Shown here piece after piece: positions 1,584 through 53,460 of a stretch of DNA of 64,000 bases. The notes below the pieces were generated by a model. It saw only the letters and a list, made by a program, of their open reading frames with translations, was not told the origin of the DNA and did not search any database. Numbering within the stretch: position 1 is the stretch's first letter; every line of letters begins with the position of its first letter. Source of the DNA: Holophagaceae bacterium (GTDB taxonomy: Bacteria; Acidobacteriota; Holophagae; Holophagales; Holophagaceae); the NCBI GenBank assembly GCA_009783055.1, contig WRHW01000001.1, forward strand, positions 62,001 through 126,000. Reading direction: 5' to 3'. Both the position numbers and the translations under genes were made by a program.

Positions 1584-1654
1584 AAAATAGAGGTATACCC
1601 CGATTCCCTTGTAGCAGTATTGGAATATTACAGAAGAGCAAATTCAATAAATAG

Positions 1655-1682
1655 TAGACACAGCGATTAATAATAATATAAA
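1655..1682 (+). promoter_or_regulatory. Probable sigma-70 promoter of tRNA-Pro
   Basis: TAGACA at 1655-1660 and TATAAA at 1677-1682 are separated by 16 bases, each matching 5 of 6 consensus positions. The expected start would fall near 1690, a few bases before the tRNA 5' end at 1694, which suits a stable-RNA promoter with a short leader. This is inference from sequence only. Confidence 0.45.
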
Positions 1683-1691
1683 ATCAAGCAC

Positions 1692-1771
<80 letters not shown>

Positions 1772-1924
1772 TATGTTTGCTCAAAAAAGTTTTATCACAC
1801 AGTTCTATGATCGCAGAAAGTCTAGGTTGGCATTGAAGACGCCTCTAATAGAAAAATTATCTGGAATTATTTTTTTTTGGTGCTAGAATACATATTCTGC
1901 ATGACCTAAACCCAAATGGGGAAC

Positions 1925-1970
1925 GGGGCTTGGCATTACAAGCACCCTGGCCGAGACAGGTTTTCGGCCT
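1925..1970 (+). promoter_or_regulatory. Two-hairpin structured leader before rplI
   Basis: Two stem-loops sit side by side in the roughly 100-base leader of the L9 gene. Hairpin 1 pairs GGG-GCTTG (1925-1932) with CAAGC-A-CCC (1939-1947), with one bulged A. Hairpin 2 pairs GGCCGA (1949-1954) with TCGGCC (1964-1969) across a 9-base loop. Upstream, TAGAAT near 1882 could be the -10 element. The region is more G+C rich than its surroundings and is open in the rplI frame, but the canonical L9 start lies downstream, so it is more likely an RNA element. Many ribosomal-protein genes are autoregulated by such leaders; whether this one is known cannot be told here. Confidence 0.45.
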
Positions 1971-2025
1971 AACCAAAAGGGGACAACGCAAGCGCGCTGG
2001 CCATACGTTATCGGAGTTTCCACAA

Positions 2026-2475
2026 ATGGAAATCTTGTTGATTGAAAATGTCACAAACCTAGGCATCAGGGGAGATGTTGTAAACGTCAAAGATGGCTAC
2101 GCTCGCAATTTTTTGCTTCCCCGCAAAAAGGCACTTCCTGTCACATCAGGTAACAAGCGCCAGATTGAGCTAGAAAAAGAGCGCAATATTAAGCTCCGAG
2201 CCAAGGAACTTGCAACTGCCCAAGAACTGAAAACTCGCCTAGACGCAATTTCTCTCAGTATTTCAAAAAAATCTGGGGAAAATGGGCAACTATTTGGTTC
2301 TGTAACTAATGCAGACGTTGCAGAGTTGCTAAAAGCCAAAGGTTTTGAAATTGAACGCCACTCCATTTCACTGCCTCATGTAAAAGCTACTGGCACATAC
2401 GAAGTGCTGATACGGCTTTATACAGATGTTCACTCAAAAATACAGCTGACTGTATCTGCTCAGTCGGCGGAATAA
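2026..2475 (+). CDS. rplI: 50S ribosomal protein L9 (bL9)
   Basis: From ATG 2026 the product is 149 residues, the normal bL9 length. It begins MEILLIENVTNLGIRGDVV and carries the N-terminal-domain signature GYARNFLLPRKKA. A charged linking helix (about residues 40-75) and the C-terminal RNA-binding domain follow. The frame is open for another 32 codons upstream, but that part has no L9 similarity and forms hairpins, so the internal ATG is chosen. L9 is usually encoded behind rpsF and rpsR; here neither is adjacent, and a tRNA and a structured leader precede it instead. HU follows 80 bases downstream. Confidence 0.95.
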   Translation: MEILLIENVTNLGIRGDVVNVKDGYARNFLLPRKKALPVTSGNKRQIELEKERNIKLRAKELATAQELKTRLDAISLSISKKSGENGQLFGSVTNADVAELLKAKGFEIERHSISLPHVKATGTYEVLIRLYTDVHSKIQLTVSAQSAE

Positions 2476-2555
2476 TTTTTACCCCAAACCTGAGATACTT
2501 TCGTTATGGCAGAGTGCAGAGCATGGTGTCTCACTAATCGTATAAGGAAACAATA

Positions 2556-2852
2556 ATGACAACAACTCAAAAGCCTGAAGCTATCGGTATTCCAGAATTG
2601 GCTACATTGCTGGCAGATCGACATGATCTTACAAAAGCAAATGCCAAAAACATACTTGATGACCTCCGCGACCAAATCGTTTCTTCCATACTGGATGGCA
2701 AGCGCGTTGGCCTGTTTGGTCTTGGTACATTTGAAGTGAGGCCTACCAAAGAAAAGATGGGTCGCAACCCCAAAACTGGCGAACAAATCAAAATACCAGC
2801 CGGTCGTAAGGTAGTGTTCAAGGCCGCAAAAGGCATTAAAGACAAAATGTAA
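2556..2852 (+). CDS. HU/IHF-family DNA-binding protein
   Basis: A 98-residue nucleoid protein, slightly longer than the usual 90 because of about eight extra N-terminal residues. The helical dimerisation half is followed by FGLGTFEVRPTKEKMGRNP and TGEQIKIPAGRKVVFK, the HU/IHF arm signature. It includes the Pro of the GRNP turn that inserts into the DNA minor groove. AAGGAAAC lies a few bases before the ATG as ribosome-binding site. It probably acts as a homodimer bending and compacting DNA. A strong intrinsic terminator follows 20 bases after the stop, so it ends its transcription unit. Confidence 0.93.
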   Translation: MTTTQKPEAIGIPELATLLADRHDLTKANAKNILDDLRDQIVSSILDGKRVGLFGLGTFEVRPTKEKMGRNPKTGEQIKIPAGRKVVFKAAKGIKDKM

Positions 2853-2871
2853 TATTTTCTTGCCCTCTTTT

Positions 2872-2895
2872 AGCCCAGCACTGCTGGGCTTTTTT
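2872..2895 (+). terminator. Intrinsic terminator after HU
   Basis: A perfect 8-bp stem, AGCCCAGC (2872-2879) with GCTGGGCT (2883-2890), has a 3-base ACT loop and runs straight into T residues at 2891-2895. It is the clearest rho-independent terminator in the window and ends the unit carrying rplI and/or HU. Confidence 0.92.
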
Positions 2896-3170
2896 CGTTT
2901 GGCTTAAACCAAGCTATTGAAAACAACAAAGAAGCTAAAATTACCACCGAACATAGAGCTTGGCTTATTGCCTCCTCGCTCGCCGGAGTTAAATCCAGAG
3001 GGGCAGGTGTGGGGTGAGCTGAGAGAAAAGTTCTTTGGCAATAGGGTTTTCAAGAGCCGTTGAGGGGCTACGTCACTTGGAGGCTTCACCTCAATTGCTT
3101 GCCAGTCACACGCAGAGATCATAGGTGGAAGAAAATTCATTATGAAGTGTTTTGATTGCAATTTAGTATC

Positions 3171-3199
3171 GGCATTCCCTGCCGGTGGCAGAGAATGCC
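3171..3199. other. Long interrupted hairpin downstream of the GH3 gene
   Basis: The 356 bases between the HU terminator and the GH3 stop hold no convincing gene. They contain GGCATTC (3171-3177) pairing with GAATGCC (3193-3199). After a single C/A mismatch, CTGCC (3179-3183) pairs with GGCAG (3187-3191) around a GGT loop. It lies about 50 bases after the GH3 stop and could stabilise or end that transcript. No T-run follows on either strand, so it is not a standard intrinsic terminator. Confidence 0.5.
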
Positions 3200-3251
3200 G
3201 AGAGAATAAAGTTGCGTCCGACAAAATTTTTGGTGACGAAGCAGGAATCAA

Positions 3252-5585
3252 TCATTCGAGTTTTGAAATTTGCTCTCTCATGCGAATATCCTCTGAAGAT
3301 GCACCAACCATGACAGTAAAAATGCTGTCTTCAACCGTTAGCTTCATATGCTGGTCTATAAAGGACAAATCGTTTGGTTCGATAAAGAAGACGATTTCCC
3401 TCTCCTCACCTTTTTTCAAATGCACCCTTGAAAAATGTCTAAGTTGTTGCATAGGCTGGACTACCGATACGTACCTATTGCTTATGTATAATTGAGCCAC
3501 TTCGTCACCATCGCAAGGACCGGTGTTTTTGATATTAAACGATATGCGATAGGTATGCTTTCCTGTTTCTATTACTTTTAGTCGACTGTATTCAAACGTA
3601 GTGTAGCTACGCCCATACCCAAAAGGAAATAATGCAGTAGAGCTCATTTCCACGTAATCATGCGCCTTCGGATTTCTTTTGTTGTAATACACAGGTATTT
3701 GACCTTCGTGGCGGGGGACTGAAATGGGTAGGCGACCGGCGGGGTTATAGTCGCCGAATAGTACATCGGCAATTGCGTTGCCACCTTCCTGGCCAGGATA
3801 CCACGCCGTCAGCAGTGCATCTGCACACTCGCTGGCGAGGTTCATATTCAGCGGGCGACCCTGAATATATATTACTACCAACGGTTTTCCCGTGTCCAAT
3901 AGAGCCTTGATTAGTGTTTCCTGTTTCCCTAGTAAATTTAACGACATTCGGTCGAAGCCTTCACCGCTCTCCATGTCGCTAACACCTTTTTGTGATGCCA
4001 CCGCCGCCCCTGTCTCGATGTACTCCGTCCTAAAATCTCTCGCGCTCGAACCTCCAACCACAGCTATCACTACGTCTGCACGAAGCGCGGCATCAACCGC
4101 ACTGGAAATCTCATCTGAAGTCATATCCCTGATGGCGCATCCCTTTACGTATTCAACGTTAGCAGTGCCTACTTTTTTCTTAATACCCTCCAGGACAGTT
4201 GACACGGTACCATCGTCCTGAGGCGCAGTGTAGTCACCAAGCATGTTGTACACGTTATGGGCGTTTGGTCCGACGACGGCAATTTTATTGACATCCTTTC
4301 TCAAAGGCAGGATATTGTTAGTATTTTTTAGCAGTACTATAGATTCCTGTGCCAATCGACGCGCTAACATGACGTGGTAATCGCTACGTACGTAATTGAC
4401 GGCGGTAGAGGGTTCAACATATGGACGCTCAAAAAGTCCCATCGCGAACTTGTAGTACAACACGCGAGACACAGCCGCGTCTATAAGCGTCTCGTCTATT
4501 TTTCCTTTTCTTACAGCATCTACCAGGTTAATAAAAGCCCTGCCCCCCAAATCCACGTCCACCCCTGCGCTGAGCGAAAGCATCGCCGCGTCTGTATTTG
4601 TTTGTGCAACAAAGTGCTGTGAGCGCAACCCCTCAATACTGCCCAAATCAGAGACAACAAACCCACGAAATCCCCAGTCCTTGCGTAATATATCTGTCAG
4701 CAAATTGCGGTTCGAAGTACAAGGAATACCATCAATAGAATTATAAGCCGTCATCACCGATAGTGCTCCGGCATCTATTGCTACACGGAAGGGCGGAAGG
4801 AAGTTTTCGAGTAGTTCCCGTTCGCCCAGCAGAGACTGGCTACCATTATGTCCACCCTCGGGAACGCCATAACCAGCAAAGTGCTTGAGGGTGGATAACA
4901 TACCCCATCCGCTTGTAAAAACACCGCCGCCCGAACCTTTGACAAAGGCTCGCCCCATCTGTGCTATCAATACATGGTCTTCACCATACGTCTCTTCCAC
5001 CCGCGACCACCTCGGATCACGTGCAAGGTCTAGTATCGGACCATAGCCTATATGTGCGCCCTGCGCTCTCACCTCTTTGGCAATGGCAGTCGCCATTTGC
5101 TCTATCAACAATGGGTTCCATGTAGAAGCCTGACCAATTGCAGTGGGGAATACTGTTGCCCCGATAGCCATGTGACCATGAGGGGACTCTTCGGCAAGAA
5201 AAATAGGAATACCCAGACGTGAATTTTCTATGGCGTATTTTTGCAAAGCGTTACCAGCCATAGCCGCCATTGCCGGATTTAATCCATTGGCAATCGTTTT
5301 TTTAGTCCAAGGATCGGCGCGAAAAGTGGCCCACAACATGCCAATATGTTGTTCGTTTACCAATACCTCAAACTTTGACGACTGCTTTATCCCATCGTCA
5401 CTTTTTTCGTACATTTCCCAGCCCATCTGGCAGAGCAACTGCCCCACCTTTTCTTCCAGCGTCATGCGAGAAATTAAATCCACAGTCCGCGCAGTAGCCG
5501 ACAGAAGCGGGTTTTGATAGGGGAGTTTTTCATCTCCGCCCCAGCCCAAAATAGCCACTAAAGCAAAAATCAAATATTTTTTCAT
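3252..5585 (-). CDS. Secreted GH3 beta-glucosidase-like glycosidase
   Basis: A 777-residue glycoside hydrolase family 3 protein, near the length of BglX. After a short signal peptide comes the N-terminal barrel domain with EESPHGHMAIGATVFP, RDPRWSRVEETYGED and LKHFAGYG. The nucleophile Asp313 sits in GFVVSDLGSIEG; GH3 enzymes usually have SDW here, so Leu replaces Trp at a substrate-contact position. The second domain has ESIVLLKNTNNILPL, and a fibronectin III-like C-terminal domain follows. Expected activity is removal of terminal beta-linked sugars from oligosaccharides in the periplasm or outside; the exact sugar cannot be read. It is divergent from the tandem sulfatase gene. Confidence 0.9.
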   Translation of the reverse strand: MKKYLIFALVAILGWGGDEKLPYQNPLLSATARTVDLISRMTLEEKVGQLLCQMGWEMYEKSDDGIKQSSKFEVLVNEQHIGMLWATFRADPWTKKTIANGLNPAMAAMAGNALQKYAIENSRLGIPIFLAEESPHGHMAIGATVFPTAIGQASTWNPLLIEQMATAIAKEVRAQGAHIGYGPILDLARDPRWSRVEETYGEDHVLIAQMGRAFVKGSGGGVFTSGWGMLSTLKHFAGYGVPEGGHNGSQSLLGERELLENFLPPFRVAIDAGALSVMTAYNSIDGIPCTSNRNLLTDILRKDWGFRGFVVSDLGSIEGLRSQHFVAQTNTDAAMLSLSAGVDVDLGGRAFINLVDAVRKGKIDETLIDAAVSRVLYYKFAMGLFERPYVEPSTAVNYVRSDYHVMLARRLAQESIVLLKNTNNILPLRKDVNKIAVVGPNAHNVYNMLGDYTAPQDDGTVSTVLEGIKKKVGTANVEYVKGCAIRDMTSDEISSAVDAALRADVVIAVVGGSSARDFRTEYIETGAAVASQKGVSDMESGEGFDRMSLNLLGKQETLIKALLDTGKPLVVIYIQGRPLNMNLASECADALLTAWYPGQEGGNAIADVLFGDYNPAGRLPISVPRHEGQIPVYYNKRNPKAHDYVEMSSTALFPFGYGRSYTTFEYSRLKVIETGKHTYRISFNIKNTGPCDGDEVAQLYISNRYVSVVQPMQQLRHFSRVHLKKGEEREIVFFIEPNDLSFIDQHMKLTVEDSIFTVMVGASSEDIRMREQISKLE

Positions 5586-5669: not shown

Positions 5670-5714
5670 TAAATTTTTGTGGGCGTGGATGCCTAAATGG
5701 AAAGGGAGTTTTTG

Positions 5715-8700
5715 ATGCTCGATAGAAAAACAAAGTGCTTCAACACTGTAGCAATAGTTGCCACGATTTTGACTTTTTTGCTGGGGTGCCATGAGACTAC
5801 AAAAACAAACGACTCTTTGACATCGAAGGAACCGACAACTTTCACCCATGCGATAAATACCGAATATAAAACCACCCTGCCATTCAAAACAGATGTAGCT
5901 GATCTAGCGAGAGCAGAAAGGGGCCTCATTGCTAGAGTTGCCAAGGGAGCAACTGAGCCACTGCGAATACTAAAGGTAGATGGCTCTGTCGTATGGGATA
6001 TGGGTAAATACTCGTACATCGGCGGCAACATTTCTGACACCGACAAGTTCCCAAGTACTGTAAATCCAAGCCTATGGAGGCAGGCCATTCTGAATACCGA
6101 ATATGGCCTCTACGAGGTAGCTTCATCTGAGATAGACGGAGAAACGCGTACTATCTACCAAGTGAGAGGTTACGACATAGCAAACATGGCCTTTGTCGAA
6201 ACCAATAATGGCTTCATTGCAGTAGATGCGCTGAGCTACAAAGAATCTGCAACTGCCGCGGTAAAGCTCTTTTATGACTACCTTCCCCAAGCCAAGCAGG
6301 GCAAATATATCCATACAGTCATCTACACCCACAGCCATGGCGACCATTACGGTGGCATACAGGGTATATTGGAAAGTGGAAAAACTACAGGCACTGTATC
6401 AATAATAGCTCCGGATAGGTTTTTTGAAGAAGCCATCTCTGAAAATGTTACGGTAGGCCCTGCAATGCTTAGACGCGCAAGATGGATGTATGGGTTCCAG
6501 CTCTGGACGATAGATATTCCTGAGGGGAGAGGCCAGGTAAATAATGGGCTAGCAATAGGCTCCGGCAACGGTACTATGGACTTGTTGCCACCAACTGCAA
6601 CCATTGATAAAGATGGCCAAATACCCATTGATGGCACCATTGTAGAGTTTTTGCTGGCACCACACACCGAGGCACCCGCCAGCCTGGCAATGTTTTTCCC
6701 GGAGTACAAATCAATATGTCTGGGAGAGCTTTGTAGCCAGTCCCAACACAACATCCTGACTCCGCGCGGAGCCCAGGTGCGGGATGCAATGGCCTGGAGC
6801 AACGCACTCACCAAGATTCAGCAACAGTGGGTAGATACGAAAGTAGCTGAGTCGGCCTGGGGAATGCACCTCTGGCCACGTTGGGGTAATGCAGAAATTG
6901 CTGAATATGTCGGCAAGCATAGCAAAATGTACCGTAGCCTCCATGATGGAACTGTTGCATTGATGAACGAGGGCAACGACATGCTGGAGTGCGCTGAGCT
7001 ATTTCAATTTCCACCAGAAGTAGCCAGCGAGTGGTTTAATAGGGGCTATTATGGAGCGACAGTCCATAACGTCAAGGCGGTATACCAAAAGTATTTGGGC
7101 TGGTTTGATAACAACCCAGTAAACCTATGGAGGCACCCTGGGAAGGCATCGGCAGATCGCTACGCCAAGTATCTCCCTAAAGCTGGGGGCAACCTCCTGA
7201 AAGCCGCCCAAGCCGCATACGATGACGGCGACTACCGCTGGGCGGTCGAGGCATTGGATTATATACGCTTGGCACCCGATGGCTGGGGAGCCACAGACTA
7301 CAGGTCTGCGTTGATTCTACAGGCTGATGCCTTCGAGCAGATGGCCTACTCCGCAGAGAGCGGTATTTGGAGAAACTATTACCTTACAGGAGCATGGCGA
7401 AACCGACTCGAAGTAGGCACTGTAGCTACTAAAGAGCCTACTGCATTTACAAAATCAGAAAACGCCAAATATAAAAATTTACTGCCATTCAAAACCGACA
7501 CCGCAGACGCACTGAGAGTAAAAAAGGGATTCATAGCCAGAGTTCCAAAAGGAGCTACAGAACCATTGCGTATCGAAAAGGCAGACGGCTCAGTTATTTG
7601 GGATATGAGTAGATATTCATATATCAATGGTGACATTTCCGACACAGATAATTTTCCTGATACGGTAAATCCCAGTCTGTGGAGACAGGCCATACTAAAT
7701 AATGAATATGGACTTTTTGAGGCAGTCACCAGCGAGATAGACGGGGAAATGCGTTCTATCTATCAGGTGCGTGGGTACGACATTGCTAACATGAGCTTTA
7801 TCGAAACCCAAAACGGATTTATTGTAGTGGACGTGACAACTAACGAAGAGTCCGCCGCAATGGCCGTAGAGCTGTTTTATGACTACTTGCCGGAGCATAA
7901 GCAGGGCAAGGCCATCCACACAGTTATTTTTACCCACAGTCACATAGACCACTTCGGTGGCATTCAGGGGGTGCTGAAAAGTGGTAAAACTACAGGAACT
8001 GTGTCGATAGTAGCTCCGGAAAACTTTTTTGAAGAGGCTGTTTCAGAAAACGTGACCGTAGGCCCAGCGATGCTAAGGCGCGCCGGATGGATGTACGGAA
8101 TGCAACTCTGGGCGATCAGCATCCCTGAGGGGCGAGGTCAGGTAAATAACGGGCTTGCAATAGGCTCTGGCAACGGAACTACTTATCTGGAGCCGCCCAA
8201 CGTTATCGTAACGAAAGATGGTCGACTACCCTTCGACGGCACAAATGTAGATTTCATACTTGCGCCCCACACCGAGGCACCTGCCAGCCTTGTAATGTTT
8301 TTTCCGGACTACAAATCAATATGTCTGGGCGAGCTGGTCAACCAAACGCAACACAACATCCTTACCCCGCGAGGTGCGCAAGTGCGTGACACACTGGCAT
8401 GGAGTAATGCCCTCGACAAAATGGCGCAACAGTGGGTCAACACAGGGCTGGCCGATTCGGCATTTGGGTCACATCACTGGCCACGTTGGGGCAAGGAGGA
8501 CGTAGCAGAAATCATCGACATGCAGAGCAAACTATATCGCAGTCTTCACGACGGAACAGTTGCATTGATGAACGCCGGATATGATATGTTGGAGTGCGCC
8601 GAATTATTTGAATTTCCTGCCGAAGTGGCCAACAAGTGGTTTAATAGGGGCTACTATGGTGCGACAGTTCATAACGTAAAGGCCGTTTACCAAAAATACA

Positions 8701-9053
8701 TCGGATGGTTCGACAACAACCCGGCTAACTTGTGGAGGCAACCTGGCAAAGTTTCGGCAGGATATTATGCAAAGTACCTGCCCCAGTCAGGAGGTAGCCT
8801 AGTGAAGGCGGCCAAGGAGGCATACGGAGAAGGAAATTATCGTTGGGTGGTTGAAGTGCTTGACCACGTTCGTTTGGCCCCCACTGCCTGGGGAGAAGCC
8901 GAATACACTGAAGCACTAGCATTACAGGCTGATGCTTTTGAGCAGATGGCCTACTCCGTAGAGAGCGGTATTTGGAGAAACTACTTCCTTGCAGGGGCCT
9001 GGCGAAACAGAGACGAGGGAGTTCGGAACCGTTTGGATGCAGATGTAAACTAA
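5715..9053 (+). CDS. Tandem-duplicated alkylsulfatase-type metallo-beta-lactamase lipoprotein
   Basis: From ATG 5715, with AAGGGAG six bases upstream, the product has 1112 residues. An in-frame ATG at 5697 is less likely. It begins with a lipoprotein signal whose lipobox LLGC gives Cys25. Two full copies of an alkylsulfatase (SdsA1/BDS1-like) unit follow at an exact spacing of 535 codons. Each has a metallo-beta-lactamase metal site (HSHGDHYGG with His206, His208, Asp210, His211; HSHIDHFGG with His741, His743, Asp745, His746). Each also has HTEAPAS and CLGEL-QHN stretches and a helical region like the SdsA1 dimerisation domain. The SCP2-like C-terminal domain of SdsA1 is absent from both copies. 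Known relatives hydrolyse alkyl sulfates such as SDS; substrate here is inferred. Confidence 0.88.
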   Translation: MLDRKTKCFNTVAIVATILTFLLGCHETTKTNDSLTSKEPTTFTHAINTEYKTTLPFKTDVADLARAERGLIARVAKGATEPLRILKVDGSVVWDMGKYSYIGGNISDTDKFPSTVNPSLWRQAILNTEYGLYEVASSEIDGETRTIYQVRGYDIANMAFVETNNGFIAVDALSYKESATAAVKLFYDYLPQAKQGKYIHTVIYTHSHGDHYGGIQGILESGKTTGTVSIIAPDRFFEEAISENVTVGPAMLRRARWMYGFQLWTIDIPEGRGQVNNGLAIGSGNGTMDLLPPTATIDKDGQIPIDGTIVEFLLAPHTEAPASLAMFFPEYKSICLGELCSQSQHNILTPRGAQVRDAMAWSNALTKIQQQWVDTKVAESAWGMHLWPRWGNAEIAEYVGKHSKMYRSLHDGTVALMNEGNDMLECAELFQFPPEVASEWFNRGYYGATVHNVKAVYQKYLGWFDNNPVNLWRHPGKASADRYAKYLPKAGGNLLKAAQAAYDDGDYRWAVEALDYIRLAPDGWGATDYRSALILQADAFEQMAYSAESGIWRNYYLTGAWRNRLEVGTVATKEPTAFTKSENAKYKNLLPFKTDTADALRVKKGFIARVPKGATEPLRIEKADGSVIWDMSRYSYINGDISDTDNFPDTVNPSLWRQAILNNEYGLFEAVTSEIDGEMRSIYQVRGYDIANMSFIETQNGFIVVDVTTNEESAAMAVELFYDYLPEHKQGKAIHTVIFTHSHIDHFGGIQGVLKSGKTTGTVSIVAPENFFEEAVSENVTVGPAMLRRAGWMYGMQLWAISIPEGRGQVNNGLAIGSGNGTTYLEPPNVIVTKDGRLPFDGTNVDFILAPHTEAPASLVMFFPDYKSICLGELVNQTQHNILTPRGAQVRDTLAWSNALDKMAQQWVNTGLADSAFGSHHWPRWGKEDVAEIIDMQSKLYRSLHDGTVALMNAGYDMLECAELFEFPAEVANKWFNRGYYGATVHNVKAVYQKYIGWFDNNPANLWRQPGKVSAGYYAKYLPQSGGSLVKAAKEAYGEGNYRWVVEVLDHVRLAPTAWGEAEYTEALALQADAFEQMAYSVESGIWRNYFLAGAWRNRDEGVRNRLDADVN
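5826..9020 (+). repeat. Two in-frame 1605-bp gene-internal repeats
   Basis: Unit 1 starts at KEPTTFT (5826) and unit 2 at KEPTAFT (7431), an offset of exactly 1605 bases or 535 codons. Long blocks are nearly identical in protein, for example SENVTVGPAMLRRA, IPEGRGQVNNGLAIGSGNG and FNRGYYGATVHNVKAVYQK. Synonymous positions differ often, so the duplication is not recent or has been retained under selection. Confidence 0.9.
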
Positions 9054-9080: not shown

Positions 9081-10652
9081 ATGAAAAAATTTGCAAAGCT
9101 ATTATACACGTACTTTTTTGTGGCCTTTCTGAGTAGCGGTGCCTGCGGTCAGCTAAAATCGCAACATCAGTCCAAGCCTCTTCCGCGCATTGGGATTGCA
9201 GGTATTTCCATTGAGTGCAGTACGTTTTCCCCTGCGGTGACACCGTTGTCAGCTTTTCGCCAGCGGGAAGGCGAGGCTCTCCTCCGGAGCTATCCTTACC
9301 TGGGTGCTGATACAGAGATGGGAAAGGGTGCTATATGGCTCCCCGCAATGCTCTCAACCGCCACTCCTGGGGGTATCGTCACTCGGGAAACTTATGAAAC
9401 ACTGGTCGCTAAAACCTTGGGCTTGATTAAAGCCAACATGCCCTACGATGCATTCTTTTACCATATACACGGGGCAATGAGCGTTGTGGGTTTGGATGAT
9501 CCAGAGGGTGATTTTTTGGAAAGAATACGCGGGATAATAGGCAATGATGCCCTTGTTTCTACGTCAATGGACTTGCATGGTAATGTATCCTTGCGCCTTG
9601 CAGAATATACAGACCTGATTACAACTTTCCGCACTGCACCACACGAGGATGCGGCGGAGACTACCCGCCGAGCAATAACAAATCTTTACAACAGGGTTGT
9701 TACAGGTAAGGGGCGACCAGCATATAAGGCCTGGGTTGCAGTGCCGATATTGCTACCTGGTGAGAGAACCAGTACCAGAGTAGAGCCTGGCAAGTCTCTA
9801 TATGAAATGATTCCTGGCATAGAAGCACTTCCCGGCGTATTAGATGCAGGTATTTGGATTGCTTATGCATGGGCAGACGAGCCTCGCAATCAGGGCGTTG
9901 TGATGGTGGTTGGCGATGATCGTGAGCAGGTGGGCAATTCGGCAAAAAAACTTGCCCAAAAATTTTGGGAAGTCCGACACAAATTTGATTTTGAGGCTCC
10001 CACAAAATCACTTGATGAGTGCATGGATATTGCTATCTCAAGCAACAAAAAGCCATTTTTTATCAGTGATATGGGCGATAACCCAACCGGGGGCGGGGCA
10101 GGAGATGTTACTTGGACGCTGGCCAGAATTTTAAAGCGCCCCGAACTGCAATCGCCTAACGGAAAGACTATGATCTATGCTTCGATACCTGGGCCAGAGA
10201 TGATAGCCGAGGCAAAAAAGGTTGGCGTTGGCGGTCATGCCGAAGCAATGGTGGGTGCTATGGAAGACAGCCGTTTTGAGGGACCAGTTAAATTGTCCGG
10301 CATGGTAATGTATTCCAGCGACCGCGAAGCCGTTATCAAGGTTGGTAGTATTTTAGTCATCGTGACCCAAGGCAGAGGGGCTTACCATTACGAGCGGGGA
10401 ATGACCGCCATTGGGCTTGCGCCTCGCGAGGCAGACATTGTAATGGTTAAGCAAGGCTATCTTGTGCCCGATTGGTATAATATACAGGCCGATTGGCTAA
10501 TGGCTCATACCAGAGGCGGAGTAGATCAAGACCTAGTAAACCTGCCCTACAAACGAGTCGTCAGGCCAATTTATCCACTCGATCCCGATATGCCAGACCC
10601 GGAACTCAATGTCCTATTTATCCCTTCCGCCAAACACAAGTATGGTAGGTAG
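9081..10652 (+). CDS. Secreted M81-family (MlrC-like) metallopeptidase homologue
   Basis: A 523-residue protein starting at ATG 9081, six bases after AGGA; a TTG at 9075 is a weaker alternative. A hydrophobic signal (YTYFFVAFLSSGACGQ) marks it as exported, possibly as a lipoprotein. The mature part matches the MlrC/M81 family: GIAGISIECSTFSP, FFYHIHGAMS, SMDLHGNVS and APHEDAAET, which supply the Asp-x-His and His metal ligands of the MlrC type, then DMGDNPTGGGAGD in the C-terminal domain. MlrC cleaves linearised microcystin products, but most homologues act on unknown small peptides or amides. It follows the tandem sulfatase gene by 27 bases, probably in one operon. Confidence 0.85.
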   Translation: MKKFAKLLYTYFFVAFLSSGACGQLKSQHQSKPLPRIGIAGISIECSTFSPAVTPLSAFRQREGEALLRSYPYLGADTEMGKGAIWLPAMLSTATPGGIVTRETYETLVAKTLGLIKANMPYDAFFYHIHGAMSVVGLDDPEGDFLERIRGIIGNDALVSTSMDLHGNVSLRLAEYTDLITTFRTAPHEDAAETTRRAITNLYNRVVTGKGRPAYKAWVAVPILLPGERTSTRVEPGKSLYEMIPGIEALPGVLDAGIWIAYAWADEPRNQGVVMVVGDDREQVGNSAKKLAQKFWEVRHKFDFEAPTKSLDECMDIAISSNKKPFFISDMGDNPTGGGAGDVTWTLARILKRPELQSPNGKTMIYASIPGPEMIAEAKKVGVGGHAEAMVGAMEDSRFEGPVKLSGMVMYSSDREAVIKVGSILVIVTQGRGAYHYERGMTAIGLAPREADIVMVKQGYLVPDWYNIQADWLMAHTRGGVDQDLVNLPYKRVVRPIYPLDPDMPDPELNVLFIPSAKHKYGR

Positions 10653-12329: not shown

Positions 12330-12436
12330 TTCCTTCTCCTTAAATTACATTGTAGTACCAGTCAACAATCTGACTGTAATAACTGTATATATAATTGAAC
12401 TCAAAGTCAAAATCTACCATTGATACTGTACAGCCA

Positions 12437-12461
12437 CTTGCAAAATCTATGATTTTGCAAG
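12437..12461. repeat. Perfect 11-bp inverted repeat, partner of 60324-60348
   Basis: CTTGCAAAATC (12437-12447) and GATTTTGCAAG (12451-12461) are perfectly complementary around a TAT loop. An almost identical hairpin with a compensating base-pair change lies at 60324-60348. The 12330-12772 spacer, upstream of both the chemoreceptor and rodA, otherwise contains only the doubtful reading frame at 12447-12743. Confidence 0.65.
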
Positions 12462-12743
12462 TCCCGTGAGTGATACAGAGAGGTTTTTGATTATGAGGGT
12501 GACTGCATCAATAAACCCCAAAGCGATAAAAATGCTGGTCATAGCGGAGATGGTTGGCGTGACTGCCTCGTGTATCCGAGCATTTCCAAGAAGTAGACTA
12601 TGCCTTTCAAAAATTAGGGCGCAGTCATCAACCATTTTGCTGTAATCTATGGGGACAGGGAAGCTCCCAAGAACCTGTAAGGCTTTGGTGCATTCGCCAA
12701 AAAACTTGCACGCTATTGGATTGTTCCTTGAGAAACCCATCAT
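12447..12743 (-). CDS. Doubtful 98-residue hydrophobic-tailed ORF
   Basis: A 98-codon frame between the chemoreceptor and rodA, read on the minus strand. The first half is mixed and contains two Cys; the second half is a hydrophobic helix-like stretch (AMTSIFIALGFIDAVTLII). No ribosome-binding site precedes the ATG, and the last codons fall in the inverted repeat at 12437-12461. It also overlaps the upstream region of rodA. I do not recognise it; it may be a small real protein, a remnant or chance. Confidence 0.2.
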   Translation of the reverse strand: MMGFSRNNPIACKFFGECTKALQVLGSFPVPIDYSKMVDDCALIFERHSLLLGNARIHEAVTPTISAMTSIFIALGFIDAVTLIIKNLSVSLTGLAKS

Positions 12744-24616: not shown

Positions 24617-25776
24617 TGAAAAAACTTCAAACTCTACCACTATTAACAGCCATGACACTGCCTCTTTTGCTGGCATGTCAAAAAAGAGATGCTCATGGGC
24701 ATGAGGGTCATAACCATGAGCGCGTGGCTTCGACAGCCAGTAACGATGCCCATGACCATGATCACTCCCTACTGACTCCCTTAAGCGATGTTCCCGGTAC
24801 CCGTACCATTGTTGTAGCCCCTGCAAAAGAGTTAAGCATTTGGCTACCTGCAGTAGTTATCGCAGATGAGGCTTCTCAATTTATCCTTTCTAGCCCTATT
24901 AATGGAATTATAGATACATTGCTGGTACCTCCAGGAAAACAGGTCGTGGCTGGAACAGCTCTCGCAGAGGTTAAAAGTCCTGAGTTGGCGCGCATGTATG
25001 CTGACTGGCTTGGCGCAAAGGCTAAGTTGTCTAGGGCGGAATCTGCCTTGGAGAGAGAGAAGAGGCTGGACGCAAAAAAGGCAACTAGCCAAAGGGACTT
25101 AGAGGAGGCCATCAGCGAGGCTTCCATAGCCAAGGCTGAAGAAGAATCTGCAAGGCTTGCCCTAGAATCCTTTGGCATTAGGGCAGAACAGGGAGGAGCA
25201 ACATGGATATTGAAGGCTCCTCGTGCTGGCACTGTAGTCGATTACAAGGTAATGTCTGGCCAAGGGGTCAGTGCAGGTCAGGAATTGGGTTTTTTCCTTG
25301 CGACAGGTTCTGTTGTGGTCAGGATGGAAATGGCTCAGACTAGCTCTAGAGACTGGAAGCTAGGGGATTCCTTTTCGGTAAAGCACTCCAATGGTCAACA
25401 GTGGAGTGGAAAACTAGAAGGCATTGTTCCAGCACTTTCATCAGACACAATGCGACAGTCATACAGGTTGCGGCTTACTGGTAAATCTCTGCCTTTACCA
25501 GGAACCCCCGTGGAAGTTGAAATACAGTTTCCACCTTCAATTACCATCCCCCAAGCGGCTCTCCAGCAAGTTGAGGGGCGTTGGGGTGTTTTTGTATCTC
25601 TTCATGGACATGCCGAATTTCGCCCAGTAGTGCGCGGACAGGATATTAAGGGAGAAGTCGTTATCCTAGATGGACTACGACCAGGGCAAACGATAGTTGC
25701 AGAAGGAGCATACTTACTAAAGGCATATCAAAGAAAACTTGCCCATCCTGACGAGGAGGATGGCCATGTTCATTGA
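24613..25776 (+). CDS. RND periplasmic adaptor with His-rich N-terminus
   Basis: A 387-residue HlyD/CusB-type membrane fusion protein. It has a lipoprotein signal (LPLLLACQK) and a His-rich stretch after the lipid Cys (HGHEGHNHE and AHDHDHS) that probably binds metal ions. The barrel-sandwich half-motifs SPINGIIDTLLVPPGKQV and LKAPRAGTVVDYKVMSGQGV flank a coiled-coil hairpin (about residues 120-180). The protein ends with a membrane-proximal domain (VVRGQDIKGEVVILDGLRPGQ). It bridges the inner-membrane pump and outer-membrane channel. It overlaps the upstream gene by 4 bases and the downstream gene by 11. Confidence 0.88.
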   Translation: MMKKLQTLPLLTAMTLPLLLACQKRDAHGHEGHNHERVASTASNDAHDHDHSLLTPLSDVPGTRTIVVAPAKELSIWLPAVVIADEASQFILSSPINGIIDTLLVPPGKQVVAGTALAEVKSPELARMYADWLGAKAKLSRAESALEREKRLDAKKATSQRDLEEAISEASIAKAEEESARLALESFGIRAEQGGATWILKAPRAGTVVDYKVMSGQGVSAGQELGFFLATGSVVVRMEMAQTSSRDWKLGDSFSVKHSNGQQWSGKLEGIVPALSSDTMRQSYRLRLTGKSLPLPGTPVEVEIQFPPSITIPQAALQQVEGRWGVFVSLHGHAEFRPVVRGQDIKGEVVILDGLRPGQTIVAEGAYLLKAYQRKLAHPDEEDGHVH

Positions 25777-28700
25777 CTCCCAAAAAAACTCAAGGAGTTT
25801 AGCCTCTCGTTGGTTCGGAAATTTATTTTCCAAAAGCGGTTGGATTATCGTTTTGAGCCTGGCCTGGGGATTGGCAGGAGTGCTGACATTCTTCAATTTG
25901 AAGCGCGATTTATTTCCAAATATTAATTTGCCAATAATGAGTATTTTTGTACAAGCACCTGGACTGGCCGCGCCTGAACTAGAATTATCAGTTGCTCAAC
26001 CAGTGGAACAGTCTATGGGAGGAATACCTGGCGTAAAACGTGTAAACACACTTATTATCCCAGAATTAGTACAGGTTGTAGTGACTTTTGAAGGCAATGC
26101 CGACTTGTGGCAATCAAGGCAAATCATGGCAGAGCGACTGTCTAGCGTTGCAGGAAATTTTCCCAAGGGGACACGCCCTCCTCTGCTGACCAGTGCTTCG
26201 GGGAGGCTCCACCAGCTAATTGAAATTGTGGCCGAAGGCAATAGCATTGATCCCATGCGATTGAGAGATTACGTTGAGCAGGTGGTAGCACCAAGGCTAC
26301 AGGCGGTTCCAGGGGTTGCAAGGGTGGACAGGCAGGGAGGCCAAGAAAAGTCATTGCAAATATCTTTGTCTCCAGAAAAGATGAGACTTCTTGGGGCAAC
26401 GCTTGACAATGTTTTGGCATCGCTGGAAGATACACATCAAGATTTTGGTGCTGGAGTATTAGAAATACATGACAAGGCTTGGTATGTTTCTACTGGTAGC
26501 CTTGCCGCCACGCCTGAAGAAGTGAGTCGCCTGCCACTTCAGGTATCAAATGGCTGGATAACACTTGGAGAAATTGCAGATATACGAGAGGCCCCCTGTT
26601 TTCGCAGAGGATTAGTGCGGCACGATGGCCATGAAGATGTAGGTATCAGTATCGTCAAACAGCCAACGGCATCAAGCCTGAACGTGGCAAAAAATGTCAG
26701 GATGATTTTGGATGAGCTTCGAGAAGAACTACCAGATGGCATATCTCTACAATTGATCTATGACCAAGGTAGCCTAGTTGACAGAGCCATTAACGGAGTC
26801 AGTCTAGCCCTGCTCGTTGGAAGCGTTTTTGTGGCATTTGTGCTCATCATGCTATTGGGAAATCTGAGGGGGTCTATAGTGGTTTTGGCAGTATTGCCAG
26901 TGGCCACTTTTGGGGCGGCGATACCGCTCTATTTTGCCAATCTGGGTCTGGATGCAATGACACTAGGAGGGCTGGCAATTGCCATTGGTCTGTTGGTTGA
27001 TGCCGCTGTAATTATGGTAGAAAACCTAGTCCACCGACTGCAAGAAAATCCCAATTCTCACTCTCGCTATCAAGTGATGGTCAAAGCCGCTACTGAAGTG
27101 GCTCTGCCCATATTTACTGCAATCCTTGTAATACTGGCTGTTTTCCTGCCCCTCATTTCTATGGGGGGGCTTGCCGGAAATCTTTATTCTCCGCTGGCCC
27201 TTGCAGTGGCTTCAGCTATGAGCATCAGCCTTGTACTTTCATTTACCTTGGTGCCAGTATTGGTAGATAAATTTATTCCGTCTGGGGCAACTATAGTTGA
27301 ACCCAAGATAGTTGGCCTAATTAAGCGAGTTTATAAACCTGCACTTGTATGGGCATTGCGCCATGGTGCCTTGGTAAGGACATTCGCATTGGCTCTTACG
27401 ATTCCATGTATTTGGTTGGCTATGCACTTGGGGACAAATTTTTTGCCAACCTTGGATGAACGCGCATTTATGCTACTCTCCAAGGTGCCATCCGAAAGCA
27501 GTTTAGATGCGGTAGATCAGGCCAATATATTTTTAGATAAAAAACTAAAGGGAATATCTGGAGTGGAAACGGTTTACAGGAGGACCGGCAGGGCTGATGT
27601 AACCGAAGACCCATGCCCCATTACTGACAGTGAAATCATGGTTATTCTTAAGCCAAACGCCAATGAGCGCGTTTTGAGGGAGGCGATATTTGAAGTCGCT
27701 GAGTCCATGCCATTTCCTGTAGAGGTAAACACACCAATGCAGGAACGCATCGCTGAGGGTATTGGAGGAACACCGGCGGACATTCAAGTAAAAATTTTTA
27801 GTCGCAACCTCGAAAAAATCAGACCATTAGTTGAAGACTTGCGCCTCCACATAGCAGAAGTGACAGGAGTGCAGAGCATCAACCTAGATACTCCTGACCC
27901 GCTACCTAGGTGGCGGGCAGTAATAAATGAAGAGTCTATACGCCGCCTTGGGGTTCCACGAACCTTTGTTGCAAAACACTTGGAAGCCTCCCTCCAAGGA
28001 ATAGAAGCAGGCTTGCGCTTTGATGGGACACAGCCAATTGAAAGAATAGTTCGCTTTGCAGAGCCGGATACATCAAGCCCAGAGACGCTGAAGATGGTGC
28101 CGATTATTTTAGAAGATGGTCGCACAATCAACCTTGGACAATTAATTGAGTTTGAAGAAACCACTACTCCAACTCTAATCCGTCGTGAGTTTAGTCAACC
28201 CTACATTGGCCTAAATATCAGAACTGATGGAGATTTAGGTGGGACTGTAAAGGGCATCAATAACCTGCTCAAAGACATAAAGCTACCGGAAGGTGCACAC
28301 ATAAAATTTGGGGGCAAAATCGAAGAGGCTCGCGAAGCAAACAAGCGACTTACACTTGCTATATGTGCCTCTGCTCTGCTGGTGACAGGACTACTATTTT
28401 TTGCACTACAGCGTTGGAGGGAAGTATTAATAGTGCTTGCAACCCTGCCAGACGCATTTGCTGGCGGCATCCTTGCCTTGTGGCTCTTTGGAGAAACTTG
28501 GAATATTAGTTCTATTGTAGGAATGATAGGTCTCTTTGGAGTAGCCGTGCAAAATAGCCTAGTGTTAATTAGCCAGGCTAAAGGACTGATTGCCCAAGGC
28601 TATGTTTTCCATAAGGCACTCGAAGAGGCAAGTCTGGGGAGGGTCAGGCCAAAGCTCATGACAGCAGGAGCAACTATTTTGGGATTGATACCTATTCTCT

Positions 28701-28867
28701 TAGGCTTTGCAGGATCAGAACTGGAACGACCTCTAGCAGTAGTGATGATAGGCGGACTTATTACCAGTACCCTCTTCACTCTGCTCGCCCTGCCAAGCTT
28801 TTATGCTTGGGTGGGAAATGTGAGGACAGGGGAGCCTAATGCTGAATTGCGTTCAAAAGGAATTTGA
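25766..28867 (+). CDS. RND efflux transporter, CzcA/AcrB superfamily
   Basis: ATG 25766 is chosen because GAGGAGG lies six bases upstream; the product has 1033 residues, standard for RND pumps. The first transmembrane helix is followed by LKRDLFPNINLPIMSIFVQAPG and a porter domain. TM2-6 carry the motif LAIAIGLLVDAAVIMVENLV with the conserved Asp used in proton translocation. A second porter domain and TM8-12 follow, including LGRVRPKLMTAGATILG. Together with the His-rich adaptor and small protein, export of a divalent or monovalent metal is the best guess, but the motif is not the exact heavy-metal-RND signature, so organic substrates are possible. It is the last gene of the efflux set. Confidence 0.9.
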   Translation: MFIDSQKNSRSLASRWFGNLFSKSGWIIVLSLAWGLAGVLTFFNLKRDLFPNINLPIMSIFVQAPGLAAPELELSVAQPVEQSMGGIPGVKRVNTLIIPELVQVVVTFEGNADLWQSRQIMAERLSSVAGNFPKGTRPPLLTSASGRLHQLIEIVAEGNSIDPMRLRDYVEQVVAPRLQAVPGVARVDRQGGQEKSLQISLSPEKMRLLGATLDNVLASLEDTHQDFGAGVLEIHDKAWYVSTGSLAATPEEVSRLPLQVSNGWITLGEIADIREAPCFRRGLVRHDGHEDVGISIVKQPTASSLNVAKNVRMILDELREELPDGISLQLIYDQGSLVDRAINGVSLALLVGSVFVAFVLIMLLGNLRGSIVVLAVLPVATFGAAIPLYFANLGLDAMTLGGLAIAIGLLVDAAVIMVENLVHRLQENPNSHSRYQVMVKAATEVALPIFTAILVILAVFLPLISMGGLAGNLYSPLALAVASAMSISLVLSFTLVPVLVDKFIPSGATIVEPKIVGLIKRVYKPALVWALRHGALVRTFALALTIPCIWLAMHLGTNFLPTLDERAFMLLSKVPSESSLDAVDQANIFLDKKLKGISGVETVYRRTGRADVTEDPCPITDSEIMVILKPNANERVLREAIFEVAESMPFPVEVNTPMQERIAEGIGGTPADIQVKIFSRNLEKIRPLVEDLRLHIAEVTGVQSINLDTPDPLPRWRAVINEESIRRLGVPRTFVAKHLEASLQGIEAGLRFDGTQPIERIVRFAEPDTSSPETLKMVPIILEDGRTINLGQLIEFEETTTPTLIRREFSQPYIGLNIRTDGDLGGTVKGINNLLKDIKLPEGAHIKFGGKIEEAREANKRLTLAICASALLVTGLLFFALQRWREVLIVLATLPDAFAGGILALWLFGETWNISSIVGMIGLFGVAVQNSLVLISQAKGLIAQGYVFHKALEEASLGRVRPKLMTAGATILGLIPILLGFAGSELERPLAVVMIGGLITSTLFTLLALPSFYAWVGNVRTGEPNAELRSKGI

Positions 28868-50174: not shown

Positions 50175-50337
50175 GGATAATTCAGTAAATTTTTTGGTTT
50201 TCGATGCCATAACCATTCACAATAACATGATTTACAAATGCCTCACTTGAAGCGAAAATCTTTGCCGAACTATGAATCAAACCTCCTATAATAAGGATTG
50301 GTTTGTCTTTTTCTCAATCATTTATTTTGGAGTAGCT

Positions 50338-53300
50338 ATGTCCAGGTCATTCGGTAGAGTTTTATCTGGGGTTCTGACCCCCCTAGCTTTAGTTATTGGA
50401 GCGTTGCCCGCTACTGGGCAGAGTGCCTTAAAGCCTGAGGATCTCAATCAATTTTCTTGGCGATGGGTTGGGCCAACAACTTTTCAGGGTCGCCTCACTG
50501 CCTTTTCTGTCCCAGCTGGACAAAACAAAGTGTATTACGCTCTATCTGCAAGCGGGGGGCTATGGAAAACAGAAAACGCCGGGGCAACTTTTGAACCAAT
50601 TTTCGAAAAATATGGCAACCAGAGCATGGGATGGTTGGCCATTGCTCCCTCCGATAGCAATATTCTGTATTTAGGAACAGGTGAGCCAATGCACGCAAGG
50701 TCAAGTGCTCATGGCAATGGAGTTTGGAAATCCACAGATGCCGGTAAAACATGGACTCATGTTGGGCTTGCAAAGAGCCACTATATACCAAGAATAGAAA
50801 TTGATTCAAAGAACCCTGACATCGTTTATGTTGCAACTGAAGGTGCTTTGTATGACAACAATAGCGATACTGAGCGTGGCCTGTTTAAGACCACGGACGG
50901 CGGAAAAACATGGGTAAATGTCTTTCCGATGAAGGACCGTGGGGTAGGCGATTTCGTGATTGACCCAAAGAATTCAGATATAGTTATTGCGGCGGCCTAT
51001 AAGACATTTAGAAGAACTTGGACTTATCTGGATAGACATGTTGATAATGATATGTACAAGTCTACTGATGGTGGTAAAACATGGAAAAAACTAACATCAG
51101 GGCTTCCTGTTGGTAGTGAAATTGGTCGTACCGGGCTTACAATTTACGAAAAGAATCCACGGATAATTAGTGCCCGTATCGATGAAGGGGTCAATCTCGG
51201 CCTACTACAAACAGAAGATGGAAACATTTTCAGAGCCGGACAAATATATAAAGGTACCAATAACTTGGATTCTTTCAAAAAACATTCTATTAACCCTGAA
51301 TTGGCCAAACTAGTAAAATATGTGCCACCGAAAGTAGAAAGGGAAGCCGATTTAGTCAACGAACTAAACAACCAAATCAAGGATAAAGAATTTTTGACCA
51401 AAAATGGGATTGATATACAAAAGTTGCAACAAGTGGCCAAGAAGCTGTATCCAAAGGATGAAGCACTGCAAACATCAATAACAGAAGTTGAAAAAATGCA
51501 AAAAGAGCCTGAATCAGATGCCACAAAAGGCAGGTATCAGGTGATAAATCGAAATGCACTTGAAATTCTCTATGCCGATGTCCTCAGGAATATGGCTCCG
51601 GTGATTAGAAATGGTGTTGTATATAGGTCGGAGGACCAAGGAGAAACATGGAAGCGAATGACAGAGTACAAGCATTCCGGTGGCAGTACCCAAGTCAACC
51701 AGACAGAAGGCGGATACTATGGTCGCATTATTTTTGATCCGAACAATGACCAAATACTGTATTGTGGCGACACCAATACTACCATTTCAAAGGACGGCGG
51801 AAAGACATTCCAGCTTACTGGTTGGCGTGGGCCGCACGTAGATCACCGATCAATTTGGATTGATCCTCTTGATTCTGATCATATCCTAAGTGCCAATGAT
51901 GGTTCTGCCAGCGAAAGCTGGGATGGTGGAAAAACTTGGACAGAAAAATATTCTCTCAACGTGCAACAGTTCTATAACATCTCTGTTGATAACGAATTGC
52001 CGTACAACGTCATGGGTGGAACTCAGGACAATGGTGCTTGGCTTGGACCCTCCCAAACCAGGAACCAGTACGGAATATATCCATCGGACTGGAAGTACTT
52101 CCAAACTGGAGATGGATTCTATGTAGTACGTGACTGGTGGAATCCAGACTTTGTCTACTATGAAAGCCAATTTGGAGCCTCTAGTCGAATCAATATGAGC
52201 AATGGCGAAGTTCAGTCATTGGTTAGGCGCACCACCCCTGAAGAAACTGCAAAAGGAGTCCCTGCACAACGCTATCAGTGGGATGCGCCGATCGTTCTTT
52301 CACCTCATAACCCAGGGATTGTATATATTTGTTCACAATTCGTCCATAGATCATTTAGTCGTGGCACGACAGGAACTTTTGAGACAATAAGCCCGGACTT
52401 GTCGAAAAACATGACAGACAGAATCGAACTTTCCAAAAAAACCAATCTGCAGTACGGAGCCATTTATACCTTTGCCGAATCGCCGAAGAAACCCGGAATA
52501 TTTTGGGCTGGCACAGACGATGGCAACGTTCAGCTATCCACAAATTTTGGAAACACATGGACAAATATTACAGACCAGTTCTACGATTCGAAAGGGAATC
52601 TTAAAAAGGATGTTAGAGGAACTGTGATTCCATACGATAGATGGGTGAAAAGGGTTGTGCCGAGTAAGTTTGACGCAAATACATGCTATGTCGCTTTTAG
52701 CGGGTATAGGACGCATAGCGAAGACAACACCTACATATATGTCACAAAAGACCTTGGCAAAACATGGGAAGATATTTCGGGAGGGATGAACGTACCCGTT
52801 TTCGATCTCAAAGAAGACCCAGCAAATCAGGATGCTCTCTATATTGGTACAGAATGTGGGGTTTACCTTACTATCGACCGCGGAAAAAATTGGATTCCAT
52901 TTTCTACAACCGCCCCTGATACCTTAGTCAAAGAAATTGCTGTTCAAGAGCGTGATCGTGATTTAGCTATTGGGACGTATGGGCGTGGTATTTACGTTGC
53001 CGACATTTATCCAATCAAGGAGTTTAAGCCAGAGATATTTGAGAAAGCAGTACACTTCTTTGAGCCAGAGCCTGGCATTAAGTGGAACAGGTTTGAACGC
53101 AGAGGTGATACCGCTGGGGTGCCCAACAGGGCTGTCAACCCACCGGTTGGTGTAAATTTGTATTACTACATCAAATCTGAAGCCAGTAAAGTAAACCTGG
53201 TTATCAAGGATTTTGAGGGAAATGTTTTACAAACACTGACCGGCACCGCAAAAGCTGGCCTCCAAAAAACATTTTGGGGATTTACGCGTGACGCAGGCCA

Positions 53301-53460
53301 AGGAGCCACAACAGTCAGCAGGGGAGCAGGTGGTGGTGGAGCACGCTTTGGGCGAGCCCCAATGCTAGACCCTGGTGTTTATAAAGTTACTCTTTCTGTC
53401 GATGATAAGGAAATTACGACTCACAAAATAACAATACAGCCCGACCCGATGTTTAAGTAA
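50338..53460 (+). CDS. Large secreted sortilin/VPS10-like BNR-repeat protein
   Basis: ATG 50338, six bases after GGAG, gives 1040 residues with a signal peptide (LTPLALVIGALPATGQS). The body has repeated BNR/Asp-box elements such as STDAGKTW, TTDGGKTWVN, SKDGGKTF, SWDGGKTW, STNFGNTW and TKDLGKTWED, spread over two ten-bladed-type propellers as in sortilin-like bacterial proteins. A helical insert of about 130 residues (around residues 310-420) interrupts the first part. Near the C-terminus, after a beta-sandwich-like segment, comes a Gly-rich RGAGGGGARFG. Such proteins are often annotated glycosyl hydrolase or sortilin, but enzymatic activity is not established. The role may be binding or degradation of extracellular polymers. 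Confidence 0.8.
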   Translation: MSRSFGRVLSGVLTPLALVIGALPATGQSALKPEDLNQFSWRWVGPTTFQGRLTAFSVPAGQNKVYYALSASGGLWKTENAGATFEPIFEKYGNQSMGWLAIAPSDSNILYLGTGEPMHARSSAHGNGVWKSTDAGKTWTHVGLAKSHYIPRIEIDSKNPDIVYVATEGALYDNNSDTERGLFKTTDGGKTWVNVFPMKDRGVGDFVIDPKNSDIVIAAAYKTFRRTWTYLDRHVDNDMYKSTDGGKTWKKLTSGLPVGSEIGRTGLTIYEKNPRIISARIDEGVNLGLLQTEDGNIFRAGQIYKGTNNLDSFKKHSINPELAKLVKYVPPKVEREADLVNELNNQIKDKEFLTKNGIDIQKLQQVAKKLYPKDEALQTSITEVEKMQKEPESDATKGRYQVINRNALEILYADVLRNMAPVIRNGVVYRSEDQGETWKRMTEYKHSGGSTQVNQTEGGYYGRIIFDPNNDQILYCGDTNTTISKDGGKTFQLTGWRGPHVDHRSIWIDPLDSDHILSANDGSASESWDGGKTWTEKYSLNVQQFYNISVDNELPYNVMGGTQDNGAWLGPSQTRNQYGIYPSDWKYFQTGDGFYVVRDWWNPDFVYYESQFGASSRINMSNGEVQSLVRRTTPEETAKGVPAQRYQWDAPIVLSPHNPGIVYICSQFVHRSFSRGTTGTFETISPDLSKNMTDRIELSKKTNLQYGAIYTFAESPKKPGIFWAGTDDGNVQLSTNFGNTWTNITDQFYDSKGNLKKDVRGTVIPYDRWVKRVVPSKFDANTCYVAFSGYRTHSEDNTYIYVTKDLGKTWEDISGGMNVPVFDLKEDPANQDALYIGTECGVYLTIDRGKNWIPFSTTAPDTLVKEIAVQERDRDLAIGTYGRGIYVADIYPIKEFKPEIFEKAVHFFEPEPGIKWNRFERRGDTAGVPNRAVNPPVGVNLYYYIKSEASKVNLVIKDFEGNVLQTLTGTAKAGLQKTFWGFTRDAGQGATTVSRGAGGGGARFGRAPMLDPGVYKVTLSVDDKEITTHKITIQPDPMFK

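Follow-up and report, generated by a model that had tools for sequence, protein, structure and literature searches.

Organization of the tandem gene

The window analysed is a stretch of 64,000 nucleotides. It contains, on the forward strand, a gene for a lipoprotein with two alkylsulfatase-type units in one chain. Its features are listed below in window coordinates; residue numbers are counted from ATG 5697.

5705-5714, +, Shine-Dalgarno region, AAAGGGAG and spacer, serving ATG 5715 (read in the sequence)
5715-9053, +, tandem SdsA1-type alkylsulfatase lipoprotein gene; 1112 amino acids from ATG 5715, 1118 from ATG 5697
5715-5789, +, lipoprotein signal peptide and lipobox LLGC, from the sequence; predicted lipidation at Cys (codon 5787-5789)
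5817-7412, +, unit 1, metallo-beta-lactamase (MBL) and dimerisation domain, residues 41-572
6174-6809, +, unit 1 metallo-beta-lactamase core, placed by shifting the Pfam match of unit 2 back by 535 codons
6330-6347, +, unit 1 HSHGDH zinc motif; other ligands E325 (6669), E344 (6726), H391 (6867)
6723-6782, +, unit 1 S3 sulfate-binding loop GELCSQSQHNILTPRGAQVR, pattern of PMC5066984
6984-7400, +, unit 1 alkyl sulfatase dimerisation domain, PF14863 (Pfam)
7413-7421, +, junction between the units, where unit 2 has neither a start region nor a signal peptide of its own
7422-9017, +, unit 2, MBL and dimerisation domain, residues 576-1107
7779-8414, +, unit 2 metallo-beta-lactamase core, PF00753 (Pfam)
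7935-7952, +, unit 2 HSHIDH zinc motif; other ligands E860 (8274), E879 (8331), H926 (8472)
8328-8387, +, unit 2 S3 sulfate-binding loop GELVNQTQHNILTPRGAQVR, pattern of PMC5066984
8589-9011, +, unit 2 alkyl sulfatase dimerisation domain, PF14863 (Pfam)
9081-10652, +, secreted M81/MlrC-like protein (PF07364 and PF07171), 27 nt after the tandem gene stop

The first ATG of the frame is located at 5697 (ORF 5697-9053, +). The gene most likely starts at the second in-frame ATG, 5715, because a strong Shine-Dalgarno sequence, AAAGGGAG, is found at good spacing just 5' of it and fits this codon better than ATG 5697. The signal peptide is closed by the lipobox TFLLGC with the Cys codon at nt 5787, and the residue at position +2 is His. 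According to the +2 rule of E. coli, His in this position favours the outer membrane; the sorting rules in Acidobacteriota are less known. The outer membrane is thus the most likely destination of the lipoprotein. The stop codon is at 9051-9053.

The two halves of the protein, exactly 535 codons apart, align over 532 residues with zero gaps. The residue identity between them is 73.5% (391 of 532), and the nucleotide identity is 72%. Pfam finds Lactamase_B twice and PF14863 twice in the chain, the latter both times over the cut-off (142 and 136 bits). No Pfam match to PF14864 (Alkyl_sulf_C) or PF02036 (SCP2) was found in either half. A hidden SCP2 domain 3' of the stop codon is ruled out, since only the 27 nt before ATG 9081 are available and there is no coding room for it. 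A preliminary description of this DNA had started the gene at 5715, and had reported a lipid anchor and two full units at a 535-codon offset, both lacking the SCP2 domain; these points are borne out, the lipidation itself as a prediction from the sequence.

Relation to SdsA1-type alkylsulfatases and the two active sites

In the matches to PDB structures, each unit shows about 40% identity with the SdsA1, PSdsA and YjcS chains over about 500 residues. Membership of the type III (SulfAtlas S3) family is defined by an MBL fold with the motif HxHxDH and by an identity to SdsA1 of at least about 30% along most of the protein, and both are found here, although the identity criterion in PMC5066984 spans about 600 residues and the present comparison about 500 residues per unit. 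The alkyl sulfatase dimerisation domain PF14863 is present twice. The SCP2-like C-terminal domain (PF14864) of the solved members is absent, and for this reason the tandem protein is filed as a variant, outside the three-domain SdsA1 architecture. Zinc ligands, sulfate loop, PF14863 and identity per unit together agree with the SdsA1-type assignment made in the preliminary description. A chance origin of the domain resemblance is excluded by PDB matches reaching E=1e-115 and by a sulfate-loop pattern that occurs twice in the protein but not in shuffled versions.

The structures of SdsA1 (2CFU), SdsAP (4NUR), Pisa1 (2YHE) and YjcS have the MBL and dimerisation domains, the zinc ligands and the sulfate loop in common with the tandem units. 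However, each of these enzymes has one unit followed by a C-terminal SCP2-like domain, while the tandem protein consists of two fused, lipid-anchored units without it. It also differs from them at the specificity positions, where Gly is replaced by Ala and the Tyr is followed by a short insertion.

The AlphaFold model of unit 2 (14 sequences) has a pLDDT of 68. Its best PDB matches are 4nur, Pisa1, 2cfz and 7tl5, and the top 13 matches are all structures of the SdsA1/PSdsA/YjcS type. The TM-scores are only about 0.6, since the domains are loosely arranged in the model. The full-length model, with the alignment rows all on one half, has a pLDDT of 45 and a pTM of 0.30 and is unusable.

The zinc ligands of SdsAP are H192, H194, D196, H197, E303, E322 and H367 (PMC5426288). 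When mapped through the alignment, all seven positions are identical in both halves, and the earlier claim of intact metal ligands holds. The consensus pattern of the S3 sulfate-binding loop, taken from PMC5066984, has one match in each half and none in 20,000 shuffled versions. Primary alkylsulfatases carry Tyr and Gly at the positions corresponding to SdsAP 246 and 263, while the secondary enzyme Pisa1 has Ser and Phe. In the tandem protein the Tyr, which favours primary alkyl sulfates, is kept, Gly263 is replaced by Ala, and the short insertion follows the Tyr; all three features are the same in the two halves.

The value of dN/dS between the halves is 0.07-0.13, with dS saturated (at least 1.3). 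The relative rates of the two halves are symmetric (12 outgroups, chi-square never above 2.2), and a relaxation specific to one half was rejected on this ground. Both halves are strongly constrained. These values bear on the preliminary suggestion that the two sites differ in preference. Such a division of labour, in chain length or in head group, would fit the 141 of 532 positions that differ between the halves, 78 of them across residue classes, and some of these differences lie beside the ligands (HSHGDH in unit 1 and HSHIDH in unit 2, MHLWP and SHHWP, WMYGFQLW and WMYGMQLW). However, the ligands, the conserved sulfate-loop residues and the specificity Tyr and Ala are the same in both, and with symmetric rates and low dN/dS neither half shows a sign of shifting. 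We therefore consider the suggestion unlikely to hold. A modest difference in preference may exist, given the differing ligand-adjacent residues.

A tandem of MBL units produced by internal duplication is known in tRNase ZL (ELAC2), whose N-terminal half no longer has a metal site. By this precedent, one half of the present protein could be catalytic and the other a structural partner. This is improbable for a protein in which both halves keep all zinc ligands and the sulfate loop under equal constraint. The resemblance to tRNase ZL lies in the two duplicated MBL units of one chain; family and substrate are different, and the alkylsulfatase tandem retains both metal sites.

The lack of an SCP2 domain alone is not unique to this protein, because distant single-unit PF14863 members of about 434-463 amino acids are also without it. 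Short proteins of this kind (for example L016, L024 and L035; ORFs of 438-463 amino acids) consist of MBL and PF14863 like the tandem halves. However, they are single units that share only about 22-28% identity with the halves and fall outside the SdsA1-type clade, and several of them do not have the S3 sulfate-loop pattern.

Duplication history and distribution

A tree of the two halves had been proposed in the preliminary description. In the maximum-likelihood tree the halves are sisters with 100/100 support, each being the closest relative of the other, and are located within the SdsA1-type clade. The stem shared by the two halves is long, with a branch of 1.45. Both halves depart at about 25 positions from residues that the remaining members of the clade conserve, and these shared departures are older than the duplication. 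The simplest order of events would be loss of the C-terminal domain and divergence, followed by duplication. The long stem, the insertion after the specificity Tyr and the change of Gly263 to Ala suggest that the substrate may have drifted.

The last 32 or so codons of the units (8922-9017 compared with 7317-7412) have a nucleotide identity of 86%, while it is 61-79% elsewhere. Local gene conversion at the unit ends is possible.

Equal rates, low dN/dS with saturated dS and sister halves at 100/100 speak against one half being dead or a copy made in assembly. The duplication is too old for an assembly copy. It is also conceivable that two separate genes, or the copies of two strains, were misjoined in assembly or binning: the draft source genome comprises 141 contigs and has 4.4% contamination, and the tandem is seen in this genome only. 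We regard such an artefact as highly improbable. The frame is continuous, the offset is exactly 535 codons, unit 2 has no signal peptide or start of its own, and the halves share only 72% of their nucleotides. In addition, the contig is 130 kb long, and the genes flanking the tandem gene have orthologues in genus relatives.

More than 570 genomes, mostly of Acidobacteriota, gave no other protein with tandem PF14863. The sets searched overlap: 77 genomes of the family, 93 of the class, a phylum sample of 396, and two further classes with 193 and 38. In the phylum, class and two further class sets many PF14863 genes are present, all of them single units. In the source genome the tandem gene is the only one with PF14863, and elsewhere in the family nothing exceeds the cut-off except one partial match in a kinase-like repeat protein. 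The closest single-unit relatives are 37-41% identical, and PF14864 is present in all those scanned; a scan of named genomes gave relatives at 40% only. A junction-spanning query found no tandem in the 60 plasmid records listed out of 151 matching, and the matches listed from phage and viral-contig collections were single units only. No tandem or fused alkylsulfatase was found in the open-access literature, and we know of no earlier tandem form of this family. The preliminary view that the form would prove neither common nor already described is in line with these searches. The protein is thus a real architectural variant of type III (SulfAtlas S3) alkylsulfatases, so far in a single genome. 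Within this well-known family of detergent-degrading enzymes it is a rare form, and it does not amount to a new kind of system.

One candidate for a second tandem, in G173:C381, was rejected, as its adjacent PF14863 genes are separate and not fused. The two genes (1598-3926) are arranged head to tail, the frame of one of them has an internal TGA, and they are possibly an unfused tandem pair.

Proposed function and surroundings of the gene

We propose, with a probability of about 0.62, that the gene encodes a two-unit alkylsulfatase lipoprotein formed by in-frame duplication after the loss of SCP2, and that its halves most likely pair within the chain. A type III alkylsulfatase would first have lost its C-terminal Alkyl_sulf_C/SCP2 domain, and an in-frame internal duplication would then have created a lipoprotein with two catalytically competent units. 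This protein would be exported by the Sec system, lipidated at the Cys residue and, from the His at +2, most likely directed to the outer membrane. In each unit a binuclear zinc site would hydrolyse sulfate monoesters of aliphatic alcohols, the activity and substrate expected from the family. Its probable role is that of a tethered outer-membrane enzyme with two sites.

Pairing of the two dimerisation domains inside a single chain is most likely, and it would restore the dimer that is obligate in SdsA1-type enzymes. When units that must dimerise are fused, their high local concentration usually makes them pair with each other, and a built-in intramolecular dimer is plausible. However, the dimer interface of SdsAP involves all three domains (PMC5426288), so the missing third domain counts against pairing of the SdsA1 type. 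The junction is also short (residues about 572-576 and the N-terminal arm of the unit) and might not allow the partner position to be reached. The halves could then pair across chains, so that two tandem proteins would form a dimer or several would line up in a longer chain at the membrane surface. In view of the high local concentration within a fused pair, this arrangement is rather unlikely.

If the halves do pair within the chain, the fusion and the membrane anchor might replace the dimer contacts and the lipid capture that the SCP2-like domain normally provides. In SdsA1 this domain recruits the aliphatic substrate (PMC5066984), and the lipid anchor could instead bring the enzyme to an amphiphilic substrate. 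The complete form of this proposal, a covalently closed, membrane-tethered pseudo-dimer that takes its amphiphilic sulfate esters directly from the surface of the outer membrane, is offered as a tentative possibility.

The solved alkylsulfatases are dimers of two chains with an SCP2-like domain. A natural fused pair without SCP2, with both sites under selection, is a ready test of the contributions of SCP2 and of the dimer. The tandem enzyme also offers a useful scaffold in which one site of a fixed pair can be mutated at a time.

A GH3 glycosidase gene is located upstream of the tandem gene in divergent orientation, across about 130 bp. Downstream, the M81/MlrC-like gene is probably on the same transcript as the tandem gene. 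Its orthologue (81-84%) occurs in two genus relatives, G076 and G074, in other surroundings. These are drafts of 64-69% completeness, and no sulfatase is found beside either orthologue, both of which are near contig ends; a conserved sulfatase-M81 operon was accordingly rejected. In G076 a transposase-like ORF lies at the contig end, at a distance of about 50 nt from the orthologue. A third genus relative, 92% complete, has neither the tandem sulfatase nor the M81/MlrC-like gene. The source genome has one further sulfatase-like match over the cut-off; since this is of type I, the tandem gene is probably its only alkylsulfatase.

Several other observations were made in the window. An HU/IHF-like DNA-binding protein of about 98 amino acids is encoded at 2557-2853 (+), between L9 and the GH3 gene. 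A tryptophanase remnant downstream of L9 was considered and rejected, as the stretch is the HU-like gene. This gene is conserved beside L9 in G075 of the same genus, where tryptophanase comes next. Two long ORFs, at 25739-28867 and 50272-53460, have weak internal repeats with 21-23% identity between their halves. The intergenic stretch at about 12430-12715, between a chemotaxis receptor and rodA, recurs at 74-100% identity in many places in G000, some of them at contig ends, and also in G074; judged by this pattern, it is a putative dispersed repeat or mobile-element remnant.
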